Program-made: the position numbers and the translations under genes
Origin: Prosthecobacter sp.
GTDB taxonomy: Bacteria; Verrucomicrobiota; Verrucomicrobiia; Verrucomicrobiales; Verrucomicrobiaceae
Assembly (NCBI RefSeq): GCF_014879935.1
Contig: NZ_JACSRD010000098.1
Span: 1-45,004, forward strand
DNA length: 45,004 nucleotides
Reading direction: 5' to 3'
The notes under the pieces: model-generated
The model's input: only the letters and a program-made list of their open reading frames with translations
Database searches by the model: none
Told to the model about the DNA's origin: nothing
Part shown: positions 21,102 through 28,935 of the stretch, one piece after another
Layout: every line of letters starts with the position of its first letter
How positions within the stretch are numbered: the stretch's first letter is position 1

Positions 21102-22400
21102 ATGCGCCCAAGCCGTCTGCCAGCCGCTCTTTTCGCCTCTGCCCTGGTCGTGATGACCGGAGCGGTCGGCTGGCTCGTCTGGGAAAGCCAGCGCACACCA
21201 GCTCCGGCATCGCCAGCAGCAACGAAAACAGCCGCCGCTCCCAAGGTCACCAAGTCGCCGTCACGGGCGGTTTTACCCCCAGAGCCCGACGGCGAGCCCA
21301 TTGGCCATGCCGAGGCCTCACCACAGCTCGAGACGCTGAACGTTCCAGGCTCCGTCCCAAACGAAGCCCTTCTCACCTTCCGCACAGCGGAGGCGCTGGC
21401 CGCATTTCGTGATCGGGCGGCAGCCCTCGGCCTCGAAGTGCTCGGCTACGACCCGAAACTGCGCACCGCCCGCGTCCGCTTTCACGATCTCAGCGGCCTG
21501 GAACGCGATCTGCACGACTACGGCAAAGATTACAGCCACGTCGGGCCGAATTACATCGTGCGCGTGCCCGGTTTGCCGGTGCCTGCACAGACCGACACTG
21601 CCAACGCGGGCGGACGCGAACCTTTTCGCAGCCAGGGCCTCGAAATGATCGGTGCCACCGCCGATCGTTCCGCCTGGGGCCAGGGCGTGACGGTGGCCGT
21701 GATCGATTCCGGCATCGCCAGCCATCCTTCACTGCAAAACGCGCAGATCACCCACATCGACATGCTGAATGACGGCAGCACGATGAACGGCCACGGCACC
21801 GCGATGGCATCTCTCATCGCTGGAAACGACGAGACCGTCGGCGGAGTGGCCCCCGCCTCGAAGCTGATCGACATCCGCGTCACGGACGCCGACGGCATCA
21901 GCAACACAGCGCTGCTCTCCAGCGCCATCGTCAAAGCCACCGACCTCGGCGCACGCGTCATCAACATCAGTCTCGGCTCAGGCACCTCCACGCCCATGCT
22001 CGAAGAGGCCGTCCGCTACGCCCAAAGCCACAACGTGCTCATCGTGGCCGCCGCCGGAAACGAGCAGCAGACCAGTCTTGCCATGCCGGCCGGACTGCCG
22101 GGCGTGATCAGCGTCGGCGCGGTGGACGCCACTGGCACCCAGGCCTGGTTTTCAAACTCGGGAAACGGACTCACGCTCGCCGCTCCAGGTGTCGGCATCG
22201 TCTCCGGTTACACCGGCAACAAGTTCGTGATCAGCAGCGGCACCTCGCAGGCCACGGCGATCACGACCGGCGTCGTCGCCTCCCTGCTCAGCCGCGGCTA
22301 CTACGCGCAGAACATCATCCCGCTGCTCACCCGCACCGCGAAACCGCTCCAGGCGTCACCGCAGGCCGTTGGCGCAGGCTTGATCCAGATCACGAAGTAG
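21102..22400 (+). CDS. Subtilisin-like S8 serine peptidase, secreted or membrane-anchored
   Basis: 432 residues from ATG 21102. The N-terminal hydrophobic segment (AALFASALVVMTGAVGWLVW) is an uncleaved anchor or signal, followed by an Ala/Pro-rich linker. A pro-domain-like region (residues about 85-165, PNEALLTFRTAEALAAFRDR) resembles fervidolysin/I9-type propeptides. The catalytic triad is intact: D202 in VIDSGI, H231 in NGHGTAMA and S382 in SSGTSQATA, with the oxyanion Asn in AAAGNEQ. It should be an active extracytoplasmic protease. It diverges from the NSS transporter and its 3' end overlaps that of lnt by 11 bp in convergent orientation. Confidence 0.93.
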   Translation: MRPSRLPAALFASALVVMTGAVGWLVWESQRTPAPASPAATKTAAAPKVTKSPSRAVLPPEPDGEPIGHAEASPQLETLNVPGSVPNEALLTFRTAEALAAFRDRAAALGLEVLGYDPKLRTARVRFHDLSGLERDLHDYGKDYSHVGPNYIVRVPGLPVPAQTDTANAGGREPFRSQGLEMIGATADRSAWGQGVTVAVIDSGIASHPSLQNAQITHIDMLNDGSTMNGHGTAMASLIAGNDETVGGVAPASKLIDIRVTDADGISNTALLSSAIVKATDLGARVINISLGSGTSTPMLEEAVRYAQSHNVLIVAAAGNEQQTSLAMPAGLPGVISVGAVDATGTQAWFSNSGNGLTLAAPGVGIVSGYTGNKFVISSGTSQATAITTGVVASLLSRGYYAQNIIPLLTRTAKPLQASPQAVGAGLIQITK

Positions 22401-24129
22401 CAGGGCGGGCAAAACGAGCCACGGCCCACTTCACGACGCAGATCAGCAGCATCAAAATCGCGAACCAATCGCCGAATCGCGCGTAGAGCGTCAATTTGCC
22501 CTGACGCGGCACCTGCACCTCGCCAGGCAGGACGCCCTCCACAAACGATTTGCCCGTGTCCGGGTCATCCAGCCGGGACGTGACGCGACCGTGAGTGTCG
22601 ATGAAGCACGTAACGCCCGTGTTGGTCGCACGAACCATCGGCCGCCGCAGTTCGATCGCACGGAACAAGGCGTTCGCGAGGTGCACCTCCGTCTCATCGC
22701 TTTGCAGGAACCAGCCGTCGTTGCTGATGTTCACGATCATCTGCGGCGCTTCGCGTGCAAACTTACGCGCCACACGACCCACCGTGTCCTCAAAGCAGAT
22801 CAGTGGAATGATCTGTACCTCCGGTTTCATGAGTTGCAGTGGCTCCGCATTCGTCCCAGGCGTGAAATCCCCCGGAATGACGCCCCGCAGCAGCGAGAAG
22901 GGCGGATAATCCCCCAGCGGCAGATATTCCCCGAACGGCACCAGGTGAAGCTTGTGATAGTCCTGACGGTTGCGTGAATGCTCGCGGAACAACACGGCGG
23001 AGACATGGGTTCTCCCATGTTCATGCAGTTCGGTGCCGGTGAGGAGGCTGAACTCGCCCGCGTGAAGCAAATCATCGAAGTAATTCGTGTGCCAGCCTTC
23101 AGGGAGCTGGTGGAAATGGTCATTGAGGTTCACCGGCAGGGCACTCTCCGGCCAGATCACCAGATCGACGGGGTTCTTTCCATCACGCGCCCCGGCATAC
23201 ATGCGCGTGAACTTGTCCAGCCGGTCATAGATCTGTTCCGCCAGACGTCCGGTCCACGCATCCACCTGCGCCACATTCGGCTGCACCAACACCGTGCGCA
23301 CCGTGATGTCATCACCGGCTTTTTCGGTCAACTTCAACATCCCGTAACCCGCCGTGCCGAGCAGCAGCACCAAAGCCACCGTGAGATCGAGCCGCGACTT
23401 GCAGGTGCCTTCGCCGCGATAAGCGAATACAAGACGCGTCAGCGTGTTCCAGGCGGTGCAGGCCACGAACATCGGCAGGAACGACAAACCAAGCACGCCC
23501 ACGAGATCCGCCGCCTGGATCAGCACCAGATTGCGATGCATCGCCACGCCAAGGCCATTCCAGCCGAATCCGGTGAAGACCGTGGTGCTGCGCAGCCACT
23601 CGCAGGCCGCCCAGGCGGCCGCAGCCAGGAACGCACAACCCAGCGAGTGCGTGGTGCTGATCTGCCAGCTCTCTTTCGTCAGCTTTTCCACCTTCGGCCG
23701 GGCATAGCGCTGCGTGAACCAGCTCCACAGACCCAAATAGACCGCACAATAGCCAGACAGGCCGATGGCGGCCCCAAATCCCAGCAACTCCGGCCCCCAG
23801 CCAATCCAGGTGTCGTCATAGGCACCACCGATCACCCGCGACGAATGCCGCACCCACCACAGGTTTGGCAGAAAGAATGCCAGCCCTGCCAGATACCCAC
23901 GCCAGAAAGGCCGCACCTTCACCCCATCGACATTCCGCCACGGCCACAGCACGGACAGAAGCGGAAAAGGCCACAACCAGACCGCGAGATTGGAGTTCCA
24001 GCCAGGGAAAGCGAAAACCAGAATGATGCCGCTCAGCAGCGGAGCGAGGAAGAAGAACAGGCGCAGTTTTGTCAGATCAGTCACGACCCGCGATGATGCC
24101 TCGGGTGATTGGAAAAGCCAGCTTGGCAT
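22390..24129 (-). CDS. lnt: Apolipoprotein N-acyltransferase
   Basis: 579 residues from ATG 24129 (GTG 24084 is an alternative). Lnt N-acylates the N-terminal Cys of lipoproteins in the inner membrane. About six N-terminal membrane helices (FFFLAPLLSGIILVFAFPGW onward) precede the nitrilase-like domain. The triad is visible: Glu in WPESALPV, Lys in KLHLVPFGEYLP and Cys in LICFEDTVG. A final helix is FAILMLLICVVKWAVA. Two lipoprotein genes elsewhere in the window (38601 and 42821) are potential substrates. A palindrome (ACATGGG/CCCATGT, about 23003-23020) lies inside the gene. Confidence 0.95.
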   Translation of the reverse strand: MPSWLFQSPEASSRVVTDLTKLRLFFFLAPLLSGIILVFAFPGWNSNLAVWLWPFPLLSVLWPWRNVDGVKVRPFWRGYLAGLAFFLPNLWWVRHSSRVIGGAYDDTWIGWGPELLGFGAAIGLSGYCAVYLGLWSWFTQRYARPKVEKLTKESWQISTTHSLGCAFLAAAAWAACEWLRSTTVFTGFGWNGLGVAMHRNLVLIQAADLVGVLGLSFLPMFVACTAWNTLTRLVFAYRGEGTCKSRLDLTVALVLLLGTAGYGMLKLTEKAGDDITVRTVLVQPNVAQVDAWTGRLAEQIYDRLDKFTRMYAGARDGKNPVDLVIWPESALPVNLNDHFHQLPEGWHTNYFDDLLHAGEFSLLTGTELHEHGRTHVSAVLFREHSRNRQDYHKLHLVPFGEYLPLGDYPPFSLLRGVIPGDFTPGTNAEPLQLMKPEVQIIPLICFEDTVGRVARKFAREAPQMIVNISNDGWFLQSDETEVHLANALFRAIELRRPMVRATNTGVTCFIDTHGRVTSRLDDPDTGKSFVEGVLPGEVQVPRQGKLTLYARFGDWFAILMLLICVVKWAVARFARPATS

Positions 24130-24230
24130 TCCAGCATTCGACAGCGTTCACATAAGGACATCTCGCGGCCGATTTCGCCCAAAAGTTGTCCGCACAGCTT
24201 TCACGACGATCTCGTAACATCCTCACAACC

Positions 24231-26924
24231 ATGAAATCGCTGATCTTCCTGCTCACAGCTATCACAGCCGCCGCCAATCCCGTCCGCGTGCTCTACATCG
24301 ACACGCCCGGTGCCGACACCGCCCCGTTGCACACTGCGATGCGTGACCTTGGTCGTGACGCGATCTACTTTGATTACGCGAAGGACAAAGTGGACGCTAA
24401 ATATGACCTCGTCGTCAAAGCGGGCGATGATCTGAGCCGCGAAGCGATCCTCTCGAAGCTCTCCCCCGAGCGCAAAGCCGCCTACGAGGCCTTTTTGGCC
24501 CAAAGAGAGCCGGAGCGGCGTGAGAAGCATCCGCAGGTCGCGAACTACGAGAAGCGCCCGGAGCCGCTCACCTTCCAGAAGCCGTTTTCGCCCAAAGGCA
24601 GCATGGAGCGCACGCAGGTGCCGGCGGATTGCGAGCTGAAGCTCTTCGCGGCGGAGCCGGACATCGCGAAGCCGATCGCGTTCGCGTGGGATGAGCGCGG
24701 CCGCTGCTGGGTCGTCGAGACACGCGACTACCCGCATGGCATCACCGAGAACCACGAGGGCCAAGACAGCGTGAAAATCTGCGAGGACACCGATGGCGAT
24801 GGCAAAGCGGACAAGTTCATCGTCTTCGCCGACAAGCTCAATTTGCCCACCGGCATCGTGTTCGCCCGCAAAGGCATCATCGTGGCCGCGCCGCCGCAGT
24901 TCATCTATCTCGAAGACACCAACGGCGATGATAAAGCCGACAAGCGCGAGGTCATCATGGACTGCTGGGGCATCCGCGACACGCACGCGCAGGCCAGCAA
25001 CCTGCACTACGGCTTCGACAACTGGATCTACGGCTGCGTCGGTTACAGCGGCATCGAGGGCTACGTCGGCGGCAAGCAGCATCAGTTCGCGATGGGCACG
25101 TATCGCTTCAAAGCGGACGGCAGTGCGCTCGAGTTCCTGCATCAGTTCACCAACAACGCTTGGGGCCACAGCTACAACGACGCGGGCGATCAATTCGGCG
25201 GCACGGCGAATGGCGCGCCCATCTTCTTCGGCGGCATTCCCGCCACCGCTTACGCCGAAGGCAGTCGCGGCATGACCGCGAAGAAGATCAACGTGGTCGA
25301 TACCTGCCACACCATCACGCCGAACTTCCGCCAGGTGGATGTCTTCGGCGGCTACACCGCCGTCGCAGGCTCGAACTTCATCTACAGCGATGCTTTGCCA
25401 AAGCGCTTCCAAGGCATGGCCATGGTCTGCGAGCCCACGATGAAGGTCGTGTCTCTCATGGACGTGCAGCCCGACGGTGCCGGCTACAAGGCGCTCGATG
25501 CCTTCAACATCTACGCCAGCAGCGACGAATGGAACAGCCCCGTGCATGCCGAAGTCGGCCCCGATGGCGCGGTCTGGGTGGCCGACTTCGAAAACTACAT
25601 CATCCAGCACAACCCCACGCCCAGCAAAGAACGCGGCGGCTTCGTGGCGACCACCGGCGTCGGTGGTGCGCATGAGAATGACCTGCGGGATCACAGCCGC
25701 GGGCGCATCTACCGCATCGTGGCGAAAGGTGCCGCGAAGGACGCCGATACGCTTTACAGCAGGCTCACCGCCCAGCGTTTGGCCGTCGAAAGTAAGTCCT
25801 ATGTGGCCCATGCGACCTATGGGACCCATGATTTGTGGGTGCAGCAGGCTCTCGGCACGCTCGACGCCAAAACCCACCAAACCGCCCTCATCTCCAAAGA
25901 CGCCAAACTCCGCCGCAACGCCATCCGCGCCCTCGGCAGCGACAAAGCCGCGCAGGACCTCTTCTTCGGCTCCGGCGTCATTTCAGACCCGGATTTGAAC
26001 ACGCGCCTCGCCGCGTTCGTGAAGCTCTCCGATTTCCCCACCACGCCGGAAATCCAGACGCTCGTCAAAAAGCTCGCCGCTGATCCCGTCGTCAAAAACG
26101 ACGAATGGCTCGCCGAGGCCGCGAAGATGCTCGGCAAGAAGCACAAGGCCCTGAACTACAAAGAAGGCCCCAACTTGCTCCCCAACCCCGGCTTTGAAGA
26201 ACCCATCGCCAAAACGTGGCAACATCGCGACTACGGCAACCGCCCCGGCAACAAGGATGCGCAGTGGGGCTTCGTCACCGATCCCAAGATGGTCCACAGT
26301 GGCAAACGCGCCATGCGCTGCATCACCCGCGACGACGCCGACACCAGTAACTTCGCCGACGTGCCGCTCAAACCGAACACCGAATACCGTCTCAGCGCCT
26401 GGATCAAAACACACGCCTTCCGTGGCAAAGCCAGCCTCAACGACCACATCGGCCGCGCCGAGACCTCGCCCAAAATCAGCCGCAACCAGGACTGGACCGA
26501 GGTCGAGGTCATCTTCAACAGCAAGGACCGCACGAAGGCCAGCATCAACCTCCTCCACGTCGGCAAAGGCGACATCTACTTCGACGACGTGAAGCTCTGC
26601 GAACTCGTCCTCGAAAGCGAAGACGACGCCTCCAAGCTCGTCGGTGATGCCAAACGTGGCGAAAAGATCTTCTGGGAGCATCCCGTGGCCGCCTGCAAAA
26701 ACTGCCACATCCTCAAAGGCCAAGGAAGCGCCGTCGGCCCCGCCCTCGATGGCATCGCCAGCCGCAAAGACGAGGCCTACATCCTCGAAAGCCTCATCAA
26801 CCCGAACGCCAAACTCGCCGAAGGCTACACCGCCACGCCGATCAGCCCCATGCCGCCGATGAACCTCATCCTGAAGCCGCAGGAGTTCGCGGATGTGAAG
26901 GCGTTTATCTTGAGCTTGAAGTAA
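24231..26924 (+). CDS. PVC-type cytochrome c / beta-propeller / HEAT fusion protein
   Basis: 897 residues from ATG 24231. A signal peptide (about 1-15) is followed by a short ThuA-like remnant (NPVRVLYIDTPGADTAPLHT). A propeller of the PVC membrane-bound dehydrogenase type spans about 110-500 (CWVVETRDYPHGI, DTDGDGKADKFIVFADKL, GAVWVADFENYI). HEAT-like repeats follow at about 540-640, a carbohydrate-binding-like jelly-roll at about 650-790 (LLPNPGFEEP) and a C-terminal cytochrome c (CKNCH at about 822, distal PMPPM). It is predicted to be a periplasmic redox-linked sugar-processing protein; substrate unknown. The DUF1501 gene downstream is a frequent partner of such proteins. Its last 66 bp are repeated at 27316-27381. 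Confidence 0.9.
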   Translation: MKSLIFLLTAITAAANPVRVLYIDTPGADTAPLHTAMRDLGRDAIYFDYAKDKVDAKYDLVVKAGDDLSREAILSKLSPERKAAYEAFLAQREPERREKHPQVANYEKRPEPLTFQKPFSPKGSMERTQVPADCELKLFAAEPDIAKPIAFAWDERGRCWVVETRDYPHGITENHEGQDSVKICEDTDGDGKADKFIVFADKLNLPTGIVFARKGIIVAAPPQFIYLEDTNGDDKADKREVIMDCWGIRDTHAQASNLHYGFDNWIYGCVGYSGIEGYVGGKQHQFAMGTYRFKADGSALEFLHQFTNNAWGHSYNDAGDQFGGTANGAPIFFGGIPATAYAEGSRGMTAKKINVVDTCHTITPNFRQVDVFGGYTAVAGSNFIYSDALPKRFQGMAMVCEPTMKVVSLMDVQPDGAGYKALDAFNIYASSDEWNSPVHAEVGPDGAVWVADFENYIIQHNPTPSKERGGFVATTGVGGAHENDLRDHSRGRIYRIVAKGAAKDADTLYSRLTAQRLAVESKSYVAHATYGTHDLWVQQALGTLDAKTHQTALISKDAKLRRNAIRALGSDKAAQDLFFGSGVISDPDLNTRLAAFVKLSDFPTTPEIQTLVKKLAADPVVKNDEWLAEAAKMLGKKHKALNYKEGPNLLPNPGFEEPIAKTWQHRDYGNRPGNKDAQWGFVTDPKMVHSGKRAMRCITRDDADTSNFADVPLKPNTEYRLSAWIKTHAFRGKASLNDHIGRAETSPKISRNQDWTEVEVIFNSKDRTKASINLLHVGKGDIYFDDVKLCELVLESEDDASKLVGDAKRGEKIFWEHPVAACKNCHILKGQGSAVGPALDGIASRKDEAYILESLINPNAKLAEGYTATPISPMPPMNLILKPQEFADVKAFILSLK
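25796..25831. repeat. Four degenerate 9-bp tandem units inside the cytochrome gene
   Basis: The units GTCCTATGT, GGCCCATGC, GACCTATGG and GACCCATGA run back to back and fit the pattern G-N-C-C-Y-A-T-G-N. They encode SYVAHATYGTHD as a run of three-residue repeats. They lie at the boundary between the propeller and the HEAT-like region, so the insertion would be tolerated as a linker. Confidence 0.75.
26859..26924 (+). repeat. 66-bp direct repeat, copy 1 (end of cytochrome gene)
   Basis: This is the true 3' end of the cytochrome gene, from an in-frame ATG codon to the TAA. It matches 27316-27381 at 63 of 66 positions. The three differences (CCG/CCC, GAT/GAC, TAA/TGA) are all synonymous or stop-to-stop. 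Confidence 0.95.
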
Positions 26925-26960
26925 GCGCCATCCCACTTTGCTCGAGATATTCTGGAACTC

Positions 26961-27305
26961 ATGAATTGCCCAAACTGCGGACAAAAGACGGTCAGCTTCA
27001 GAGAATGGAGCAAAGCCCTCAATGCATTCAATTGGTGCTGCCGTGCTTGCAGATGCAATCTTGAAGCAAACTGGCTGGTCAAATGGACCGCATGGACTGC
27101 ATTGATCGTGGGTCTCATCCTGGGTTTGCGCCCACTTTTCAAAGGGATAGCCGAAGATCGTAAAGTTGAGGCTTTGGAGATGGCGACAGGCATCGCTCAA
27201 GGCCTTGCAGCCGTGGTCGTTCTCGGATGTATCGCCTGGTTCTTTGGAGGGTACAAAGTGATCCTATCCGACGAGCACGAGCTTGAGGAGAAACAGGACC
27301 GCTAA
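26961..27305 (+). CDS. Zinc-ribbon membrane protein between the 66-bp repeats
   Basis: 114 residues. CPNCGQK (3-9) and a second Cys pair CCRAC (about 26-30) form an N-terminal zinc ribbon; two membrane segments follow (TAWTALIVGLILGL and AAVVVLGCIAWFFGGY). The C-terminus is charged (EHELEEKQDR). Function unknown; such small proteins are usually found as isolated genes. It is bracketed by copies of the 66-bp end of the cytochrome gene, which suggests it arrived as part of a recombination or insertion event. Codon choice (for example TTG, AAA, AAT) is less GC-rich than in its neighbours. Confidence 0.75.
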   Translation: MNCPNCGQKTVSFREWSKALNAFNWCCRACRCNLEANWLVKWTAWTALIVGLILGLRPLFKGIAEDRKVEALEMATGIAQGLAAVVVLGCIAWFFGGYKVILSDEHELEEKQDR

Positions 27306-27315
27306 TGTGCCCTCA

Positions 27316-27381
27316 ATGAACCTCATCCTGAAGCCCCAGGAGTTCGCGGACGTGAAGGCGTTTATCTTGAGCTTGAAGTGA
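27316..27381 (+). repeat. 66-bp direct repeat, copy 2
   Basis: A second copy of the end of the cytochrome gene, here without the rest of that gene. It starts 10 bp after the zinc-ribbon stop. It would encode MNLILKPQEFADVKAFILSL plus K and a TGA, but it is read here as a gene-end remnant rather than a gene. The palindrome pair at 27383-27494 begins directly after it. Confidence 0.95.
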
Positions 27382-27382
27382 C

Positions 27383-27494
27383 GGAGCGCGGATTTCCAAT
27401 CCGCAGCACTCCGCCGAAGGGAAAAGCCATCTGCCAAGTGATTCGCAATCTGATCGTGCTGGCACTGCTGCTGCGGACTGAAAGTCCGCGCTCC
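27383..27494. repeat. Inverted pair of palindromes before the DUF1501 gene
   Basis: GGAGC plus GCGGATT-TCC-AATCCGC plus AGC begins at 27383 (palindrome 27388-27404). The other member, GCGGACT-GAA-AGTCCGC (27473-27489) followed by GCTCC, is the same element in opposite orientation: read on the minus strand it also gives GGAGC, palindrome, AGC. Arms are 7 bp and loops 3 nt. About 68 bp separate them. They occupy most of the 135-bp gap before the DUF1501 start. Confidence 0.85.
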
Positions 27495-27516
27495 CTCATA
27501 CGTAATTTCGCCGTCC

Positions 27517-28935
27517 ATGGCCTCCCCTTCCCCCCATTCCTGCTGCGGTCCGCTCTCACGCCGGAGTTTTCTCAGCATGGGCTCGCTCGCGCTCACGGGA
27601 TGGTCGCTGGCGGACACGCTGCGCGCGGAAAGCATCGCGAAGGCGGCTGGACGGAAGCTGAAGGACAAATCGGTGATCTTTGTGTGGCTGCCGGGTGGGA
27701 TGTCGCAGCTCGAAAGCTATGACATGAAGCCGAACGCGCCGGTGGAGTATCGCGGCGTGCTCAATCCCATCCGCACGAACGTGCCGGGCACGCACATCTG
27801 CGAGCTGTTTCCGCGGCAGGCGAAGATCGCGGACAAGTTTAACATCATCCGCAGCGTGCATCATGAGTTCTCCGACCACGGCGGCGGGCACAAGCGTTTC
27901 ATGACCGGGCGCAACCCCGCCCTTCCAGTCGGTTTTGTGAATGACGCGCCCTCGGTGCAGTCGATCATCAGCCGCAAGCTCCAACGTCCCGGACAGGCCA
28001 TGCCCACCTGTGTCGCGGGTGTGGATCGTGGTCGTAGTGGCATCGATGTGTTTTCGATGGGCGCGGCCTACCTGGGGCCTTCCGCATCCCCATTCATGGT
28101 CGTCGGCGATCCGAGCACGAAGGATTTCAAAGTGGAAAACATCGGTCTCACGCCAGACATGGAATCACGGATCGACGACCGCATGCATCTGCTAAAAGGC
28201 ATGGACAATCTGAAGCGGGAGATGGATCGCAGCGGTCTCATGGACGCCATGGATAGCTTCAGCCACAGGGCGTTTGGCATGCTGACCACGCCGCAGGTGC
28301 GCGACGCTTTCGATTTGAGCCAGGAACCCGCCAAGGTGCGCGAACGCTATGGCTACAGCACCTACGGTCAGCGCGGCCTGATGGCGCGCCGACTGGTGGA
28401 AGCTGGCTGTCGATTTGTCACCATGGTTTGGGAGAACCCATTCAGCACGCCGATACCCAAGAACTGCACCTACAATTGGGACAGCCACGCGGTGAACTGC
28501 GACATGTATGCCGATGCCCGCTGGCGCATGCCGGTTTACGACCAGGCGGCCTCAGCGTTGATCGAGGACATCCATCAACGCGGGCTCGACAAGGATGTGC
28601 TCGTCATCATCACGGGCGAATTCGGGCGCACGCCGAAGATCAACACTCAGACTGGCACCCAAACCGGTGTGAGCCAGCCCGGACGAGACCACTGGCCGAG
28701 CGCGATGTCGTTCATCGTCAGCGGAGGCGGGATGCAGACCGGCCAGGTCATCGGTGCCACCAATCCGCGGGCTGAATTTCCCATCGAACGTCCCCTGAGC
28801 CCGAACGACCTCTGGGCAACGGTTTACCAGCACCTCGGCATCGATCCAAACGACACCTTCGACGATTTCCAAGGCCGTCCGATGCCCATTTTGCCCTTCG
28901 GCGAGCCGATTCGCGAACTAATGGCCGTCGCGTAG
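27517..28935 (+). CDS. DUF1501 family protein, probably Tat-exported
   Basis: 472 residues. The N-terminal SRRSFLSMGSLALTGWSL is a twin-arginine-type signal. The body fits DUF1501, a family related to alkaline phosphatase/sulfatase folds: FVWLPGGMSQLESYDMKPNAP (about 55-75), HHEFSDHGGGHKRFMTG (about 114-130), NWDSHAVN (about 323) and ITGEFGRTPKIN (about 365), with DHWPSAMS nearby. In PVC bacteria, DUF1501 genes usually follow a DUF1549/DUF1553 or cytochrome-containing gene and are thought to act together on the outside of the cell; the cytochrome gene upstream fits this, although the zinc-ribbon gene intervenes here. Enzymatic activity is not established. Confidence 0.9.
   Translation: MASPSPHSCCGPLSRRSFLSMGSLALTGWSLADTLRAESIAKAAGRKLKDKSVIFVWLPGGMSQLESYDMKPNAPVEYRGVLNPIRTNVPGTHICELFPRQAKIADKFNIIRSVHHEFSDHGGGHKRFMTGRNPALPVGFVNDAPSVQSIISRKLQRPGQAMPTCVAGVDRGRSGIDVFSMGAAYLGPSASPFMVVGDPSTKDFKVENIGLTPDMESRIDDRMHLLKGMDNLKREMDRSGLMDAMDSFSHRAFGMLTTPQVRDAFDLSQEPAKVRERYGYSTYGQRGLMARRLVEAGCRFVTMVWENPFSTPIPKNCTYNWDSHAVNCDMYADARWRMPVYDQAASALIEDIHQRGLDKDVLVIITGEFGRTPKINTQTGTQTGVSQPGRDHWPSAMSFIVSGGGMQTGQVIGATNPRAEFPIERPLSPNDLWATVYQHLGIDPNDTFDDFQGRPMPILPFGEPIRELMAVA

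Follow-up and report, generated by a model that had tools for sequence, protein, structure and literature searches.

A bracketed zinc-ribbon gene behind a Prosthecobacter cytochrome gene: a probable trace of gene replacement by homologous recombination

Layout of the locus

In a 45,004-nucleotide stretch of Prosthecobacter sp. (assembly GCF_014879935.1, contig NZ_JACSRD010000098.1), hereafter the window, the gene for a heme-binding CxxCH protein of the Planctomycetes-Verrucomicrobia-Chlamydiae (PVC) type, hereafter cyt, is followed by a small gene encoding a putative zinc-ribbon protein and then by a second copy of the last 66 bp of cyt. Comparison with related genomes suggests that cyt and the sequence behind it probably came from another lineage of the genus and replaced the native gene. 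The source genome (handle G000) comprises 7.7 Mb in 286 contigs, the assembly being 97.3% complete; handles from G001 upward denote the compared genomes and L numbers denote loci. The features on which the argument rests are, from left to right:

22390 to 24129, minus strand: lnt, the apolipoprotein N-acyltransferase gene, native left flank (Pfam LNT_N and CN_hydrolase)
24130 to 24166, no strand: left junction, the last stretch before donor-like similarity starts (mismatch counts and BLAST starts)
24167 to 24191, plus strand: conserved box 5' of cyt, candidate left crossover (16 upstream regions aligned and read by eye)
24231 to 26924, plus strand: cyt, apparently foreign to its flanks (TIGR02604, DUF7133, cytochrome c)
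26859 to 26924, plus strand: gene end copy 1, with CCG, GAT and TAA (repeat comparison)
26925 to 26960, plus strand: leader of 36 nt from the cyt stop to the zinc-ribbon start, held in common with G028, from which it differs at 1 of 36 positions
26961 to 27305, plus strand: zinc-ribbon gene (cargo), 114 amino acids, with CPNCG and CCRAC cysteines and then two hydrophobic stretches (by eye)
27306 to 27315, plus strand: 10-nt spacer from the zinc-ribbon stop to copy 2, of equal length in G065 and identical there at 7 of 10 bases
27316 to 27381, plus strand: gene end copy 2, with CCC, GAC and TGA, right junction (repeat comparison)
27379 to 27498, no strand: inverted pair of REP-like (repetitive extragenic palindromic) repeats directly 3' of copy 2, arms 27379-27408 and 27469-27498
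27517 to 28935, plus strand: DUF1501 gene, native right flank (PF07394)

The start of cyt was placed at the first ATG, the longest open reading frame beginning at 24186.

The duplicated gene end

An exact recount of the window bore out the original prediction that the last 66 bp of cyt recur behind the zinc-ribbon gene with 63 of 66 positions matching and that all three differences (CCG/CCC, GAT/GAC and TAA/TGA) are silent; both copies translate to MNLILKPQEFADVKAFILSLK followed by a stop. A repeat search returned the pair as 72 nt (26851-26922 and 27308-27379) of 93% identity lying 457 bp apart, and 3 of the 8 bases upstream of the 66 are mismatched between the copies. Matches between the copy 2 stretch and other cyt gene ends reach E values as low as 6e-21, and a reversed-sequence control gave no DNA match at E 0.01. 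The gene-end repeat is not a chance match.

Searching the source genome with the gene-end peptide returned three matches. Two are the copies themselves; the third, 44% identical, lies in an open frame of 832 residues. A paralogue in the same genome, which had been proposed as a possible source of copy 2, can be set aside because the next gene end is only 44% identical, and the source of the second gene end is likely to be an orthologue of another lineage. No third copy of the gene end, of the kind that could show the duplication to be unrelated to the cargo, was found in this genome, within the 97.3% that the assembly covers.

As to the argument that a simple duplication would not be expected to show only synonymous changes, an unconstrained sequence would have a probability of about 0.7-3.4% of showing three silent changes out of three (for silent fractions of 0.19-0.32), which is suggestive of constraint and not decisive alone. 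Among 40 gene ends from 38 genomes, a comparison that omitted G009 (its stretch being without the initial methionine), 22 encode 21 residues identical to those of the window and 14 more differ at one residue, and their DNA shows as many as 20 differences in 66 positions. Because the peptide is near-constant while the DNA varies, gene ends in use in different lineages mostly differ silently.

Ancestry of cyt and of its flanks

Two groups of congeners, labeled here the lnt-side and cyt-side sets, resemble different parts of the locus. The lnt product of the window is nearest to those of G014, G008, G057, G004, G016 and G031 (79-82% amino acid identity) and only 64-67% identical to those of G028, G013, G064, G015 and G007. 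The cyt product is 93% identical to those of G015, G007 and G028 and 81-86% identical to those of G014, G008 and G004; at the DNA level, cyt identity is 92% to G015 and G028 and 84.5% to G004. A profile in 250-bp steps, with six genomes per set and matches below 150 bp omitted, gave the lnt-side set as best in all 11 steps from 21300 to 23800 (the cyt-side set also aligned in 6 of the 11), the cyt-side set as best in 12 of 12 steps from 24050 to 26800, and the lnt-side set as best in 10 of 10 steps from 27550 onward, where no cyt-side sequence aligned, some of those loci ending soon after cyt. The steps at 27050 and 27300 had too few aligned positions in either set.

Phylogenetic trees gave the same division. 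In the cyt tree (35 genomes), G000 grouped with G007 (support 94) and G065 with G015 (support 87); holding G000 with G014, G008 and G057 was rejected (p 0.0004), as was holding it with seven lnt-side genomes (p 0.0003) or holding G065 with its own-side genomes G010, G056 and G005 (p 0.0001). In the lnt tree (41 genomes), the converse groupings were rejected, that of G000 with G007 at p 3e-154, that of G000 with six cyt-side genomes at p 2e-8 and that of G065 with G015 at p 1e-73. By these comparisons, the ancestry of the cyt block is apparently different from that of both flanks. Conflicts in placement between cyt and lnt were also found in G031, G006, G007 and G065, and cyt occurs in differing chromosomal surroundings; because other genomes, too, place differently for the two genes, cyt seems to be frequently exchanged within the genus.

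The left switch is narrowly placed. BLAST similarity to G028, G064 and G015 begins at 24167, and the differences from G028 amount to 35 of 67 positions in 24100-24166 and 6 of 64 in 24167-24230. Position 24167 is also the first base of the box before cyt (GGCCGATTTCGCCCAAAAGTTGTCC, 24167-24191), which was recognizable by eye in 16 of 16 aligned upstream regions, including those in which lnt is not adjacent. Both switch points appear to lie in conserved sequence, the left one in the box that starts at 24167 and the right one in the duplicated gene end. Recognizable whatever its left neighbor, the box may serve as a promoter element; it presumably resembles promoters of extracytoplasmic function (ECF) sigma factors and is a candidate only.

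Native gene order behind cyt

A survey of the sequence downstream of cyt in 58 genomes of the family, covering up to 5 kb each and stretches from 285 nt upward (a 59th place being without sequence), revealed the order without the block. The DUF1501 match starts 36-86 nt past the last cyt codon in seven genomes (G004, G008, G011, G014, G016, with a downstream stretch of 402 nt, G032 and G057), which thus show an undisturbed order of cyt and then DUF1501. In the window, the order is copy 2, the REP-like inverted pair and DUF1501. Because DUF1501 follows copy 2 here and the cyt end in the seven relatives, it is copy 2, and not copy 1, that occupies the native position of the cyt end.

The DUF1501 match starts at 995 nt in three genomes (G029, G001 and G002), and the gap of about 995 nt holds an esterase-like gene, recognized by eye (loci L205, L158 and L159). 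The presence of this gene shows that the gap between cyt and DUF1501 has received other genes, with no second gene end detected. A distant DUF1501 relative (28-37%) lies on the opposite strand in G075, G003, G058, G060, G056 and G023. The REP-like pattern occurs twice in the window against 0 occurrences expected, and its strict core was seen in 6 of 251 loci, four of them copies of the window site and two representing one site in G027.

Recurrence of the bracket

A second gene end behind cyt was found in 3 of the 58 genomes, namely G000, G065 and G078, and in a control scan of reversed DNA in none. G065 repeats the arrangement of gene end, zinc-ribbon gene and gene end, including the spacing before copy 2, so that the same gene does stand between similar duplications elsewhere, which had been suggested as a check. 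The two copies differ at 3 of 66 positions within G000 and at 4 of 66 within G065; between the two genomes, copy 1 differs at 4 of 66 positions and copy 2 at 6 of 66. All six copy 2 differences are silent, which would be improbable for an idle relic (about 5e-5 to 1.2e-3 for silent fractions of 0.19-0.33); the result would also follow from gene conversion or from copy 2 being translated. Copy 1 of G065 has a changed residue (V) that its copy 2 does not share.

G078, of another genus, has a bracket with different contents. Cyt is followed there by a xylanase gene (NCBIfam NF041944, at 256 bits under its cut-off) and then by a second gene end that has decayed (L190, 2795-3931); this gene end has lost its stop and is similar to other gene ends over about 90-130 bp. 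Because this bracket holds a different cargo, such a pattern does not depend on the zinc-ribbon gene. The cyt of G078 shares 62% identity with the cyt of its congener G100, and its identity to any cyt compared does not exceed about 67%. An attempt to trace the remnant by its letters gave 10 differences in 63 positions to the best genomes and 13 to its own gene end, and no source was assigned. With regard to a fixed strand-exchange core, the junction is the same in G000 and G065 and the similarity is longer in G078.

The original prediction regarded a relative with the zinc-ribbon gene and without copy 2 as evidence against it. Such a relative was found in G028, which has the leader and 52 zinc-ribbon codons, including one stop, but lacks copy 2; it does not refute the association because the gene is truncated and carries a stop, so that later loss can explain the missing copy. 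At this locus (L112, after 6375), the zinc-ribbon pseudogene breaks off; about 760 bp of different sequence come next, and then the flank whose counterpart in G064 begins 25 nt past the cyt stop.

A search of 386 genomes of the order, of which 123 matched at E 1e-5, gave by coordinates no further short copy beside cyt, short frames at contig ends (e.g. G577) not being judgeable. In G079 (L191, 2194-2439), a stretch matches the last 82 cyt residues at 60%, the rest of cyt being unmatched within 5 kb.

The zinc-ribbon cargo gene

The zinc-ribbon gene differs in base use from cyt, as had been noted, with a G+C content of 52.3% versus 61.6% and a third-position G+C content (GC3) of 0.59 versus 0.83. 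Its description as cargo stands insofar as it is the gene inside the bracket; the foreign piece is, by our comparisons, the whole of cyt plus the zinc-ribbon gene and not the latter alone. The assignment as a small zinc-ribbon membrane protein follows the pattern of cysteines and hydrophobic stretches and is putative: matches to Pfam Zn_Ribbon_Prim (18.6 bits, 0.0024; cut-off 23) and to the NCBIfam Lar family (20.5; cut-off 39.6) are both below cut-off, and the predicted structure (mean predicted local distance difference test score, pLDDT, 49.6) is too poor for a structure search.

Of 48 genomes of the genus, three gave a match to the protein, its own included (G000, G065 and G028), always behind cyt. 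A species-wide scan gave two matches, which are the G065 and G028 loci in metagenome-assembled Verrucomicrobiaceae; among 387 genomes drawn from the phylum, the window alone matched, and no relative was found in phage, plasmid or viral-contig collections. One weak protein match was found in G050.

Proposed origin of the locus

We propose that, by horizontal transfer, the cyt gene of another congeneric lineage, with its cargo and a second gene end, probably replaced the native cyt through homologous recombination between 24167 and about 27381. The incoming DNA would have consisted of a cyt gene, the zinc-ribbon cargo behind it and a second cyt gene end behind the cargo. On the left, the crossover would have fallen at the conserved box that precedes cyt or close to it; on the right, the incoming second gene end would have recombined with the end of the native cyt. 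As the native flank lies directly behind copy 2, the right crossover is placed in or directly after copy 2. The native cyt would have been lost except for a remainder forming the right part of copy 2, and the two copies would differ only silently because both would descend from gene ends that were functional in different lineages. The mosaic and both of its switch points, the place of copy 2 at the native cyt end, the G065 bracket and the other cargo of G078 are direct observations; homologous recombination as the mechanism, in one event and not two, is what we infer. Copy 2 was probably already present on the incoming DNA, as suggested by the spacer shared with G065, with which the resemblance of its letters to those of G015 and G028 agrees. 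The original prediction that one copy came by recombination from a homologous gene under selection is supported by the differing ancestry of cyt and its flanks, by copy 2 standing in the native place and by the recurrence in G065 and G078.

Several results weigh against this proposal. By its letters, copy 2 is closest to the cyt-side genomes G015 (1 difference) and G028 (2 differences), with 3 differences to G004 and 6-12 to the other native-side genomes, and so does not plainly appear to be a native gene end. The letters could not tell which copy is native, because the three sites at which the copies differ vary in both sets of relatives. An earlier lnt tree (33 genomes) did not reject a grouping of G000 with G028, G013, G064 and G061 (p 0.47); the deep placement of this long-branched lnt group seems unsure, its distance from G000 firm. 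No other compared cyt locus matches the right flank of G065, a genome whose cyt is split over two contigs. Synteny of that flank through its aspartokinase gene was also considered and set aside, the gene being present in 47 of 48 genomes and, wherever else both were listed, on a contig other than that of cyt.

Cyt and the zinc-ribbon gene may or may not have arrived in a single step. Synonymous divergence (dS) of the zinc-ribbon gene lies below that of the whole of cyt, at 0.034 versus 0.29 for G028 and 0.175 versus 0.446 for G065, which hints at a younger gene and separate movement. Against the cyt tail alone, the comparison gave p 0.15 for G028, which is not significant, and a weak p 0.04 for G065. 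Since the zinc-ribbon gene is younger only against the whole gene and the local test is not significant for G028, we have not used dS to prove separate mobility. Judged by their nearest genomes, lnt and cyt of G028 do not conflict equally clearly, and there the zinc-ribbon gene may have been placed behind a resident cyt.

Alternatively, an integrase supplied in trans could have inserted a small element, made up of the zinc-ribbon gene and a gene-end copy, into the end of cyt and restored that gene in the manner of e14 in icd, with the foreign ancestry of cyt as a separate matter. We consider this unlikely. Its outcome would equal that of e14, for which a published excerpt gives a duplicated gene end of 165 bp (PMC11148124), and it would accommodate the exact ends and equal spacing in G000 and G065, the apparent youth of the zinc-ribbon gene and the possibility of a resident cyt in G028. 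However, integrase genes were found neither in the 457-bp unit, which holds one long frame, nor among 20 further window proteins scanned with Pfam (38 long open reading frames were listed for the window); the body of cyt conflicts with lnt in both genomes with a whole bracket; and in G078 the similarity of the second gene end to other gene ends extends over about 90-130 bp and the cargo is a different one. The collections of mobile elements, as noted, gave no zinc-ribbon relative.

Duplication of the gene end within one genome, with the copies kept alike by gene conversion or by translation of copy 2 as a 21-codon frame from ATG to TGA, strikes us as quite improbable. This frame is open in both G000 and G065, all six differences between their copies 2 are silent, and the differences within each genome are not above those between genomes. 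Such a duplication nevertheless leaves the mosaic and the native position of copy 2 unexplained; the residue change confined to copy 1 of G065 means that homogenization is incomplete, and the second copy of G078 is decayed. An assembly artefact that fused the gene ends of two strains, conceivable in a 286-contig assembly whose two zinc-ribbon relatives are metagenome assemblies, is very improbable given the identical order and equal spacer in the separate genome G065 and the pattern with other cargo in G078.

Returning to replacement by recombination, a more speculative and rather unlikely extension is that the cyt gene end acts as a portable homology arm, by which congeners take up the unit through their own gene end and renew a functional end each time, making cyt an integrase-free docking place for single-gene cassettes such as the zinc-ribbon and xylanase genes.

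Significance

Where recombination has joined DNA of related bacteria, the junction is usually difficult to recognize, its two sides being so similar. At this locus, three marks place the junction within tens of bases, namely the second gene end that was kept, the silent differences and the foreign cargo. Two further genomes repeat it, one with other cargo, and the locus appears to preserve a known type of DNA exchange with uncommon clarity. It can now be tested whether short homologous gene ends suffice for the entry of genes without an integrase and whether some conserved genes are repeated entry points.

Comparison with known systems

A literature search found no account of this pattern in Verrucomicrobiota, which is no proof of absence. 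The nearest outcome is that of e14 in icd of Escherichia coli K-12, where, according to the same excerpt, the duplicated gene end carries 12 base changes and two conservative residue changes (PMC11148124). More generally, an integrase that cuts inside a gene is described, in a partial text, as acting for an element that brings replacement sequence preserving gene function (PMC10111431). As far as the e14 excerpt goes, the cyt locus is similar in having the target gene end on both sides of the insert, an intact gene and differences that are nearly all silent. In contrast to e14, the cyt insert is 457 bp long, no integrase was found, the body of the upstream gene is apparently foreign as well and the cargo varies between genomes. 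We set the locus apart from the e14 kind because neither the unit nor the window proteins scanned showed an integrase and because the gene body is apparently not the host's own.

Replacement of an orthologue in place is termed xenologous or orthologous displacement in situ. The locus resembles orthologue replacement by homologous recombination in that the gene tree conflicts with the flank tree, both breakpoints lie in conserved sequence and such exchange seems frequent for cyt in the genus; unlike plain orthologue replacement, the cyt event would have brought an extra cargo gene and left the second gene end as a visible seam. Homology-facilitated illegitimate recombination, as presented in an excerpt of PMC3240628, similarly has foreign DNA anchored by homology on one side, whereas at cyt the right end, too, apparently lies in homologous sequence.

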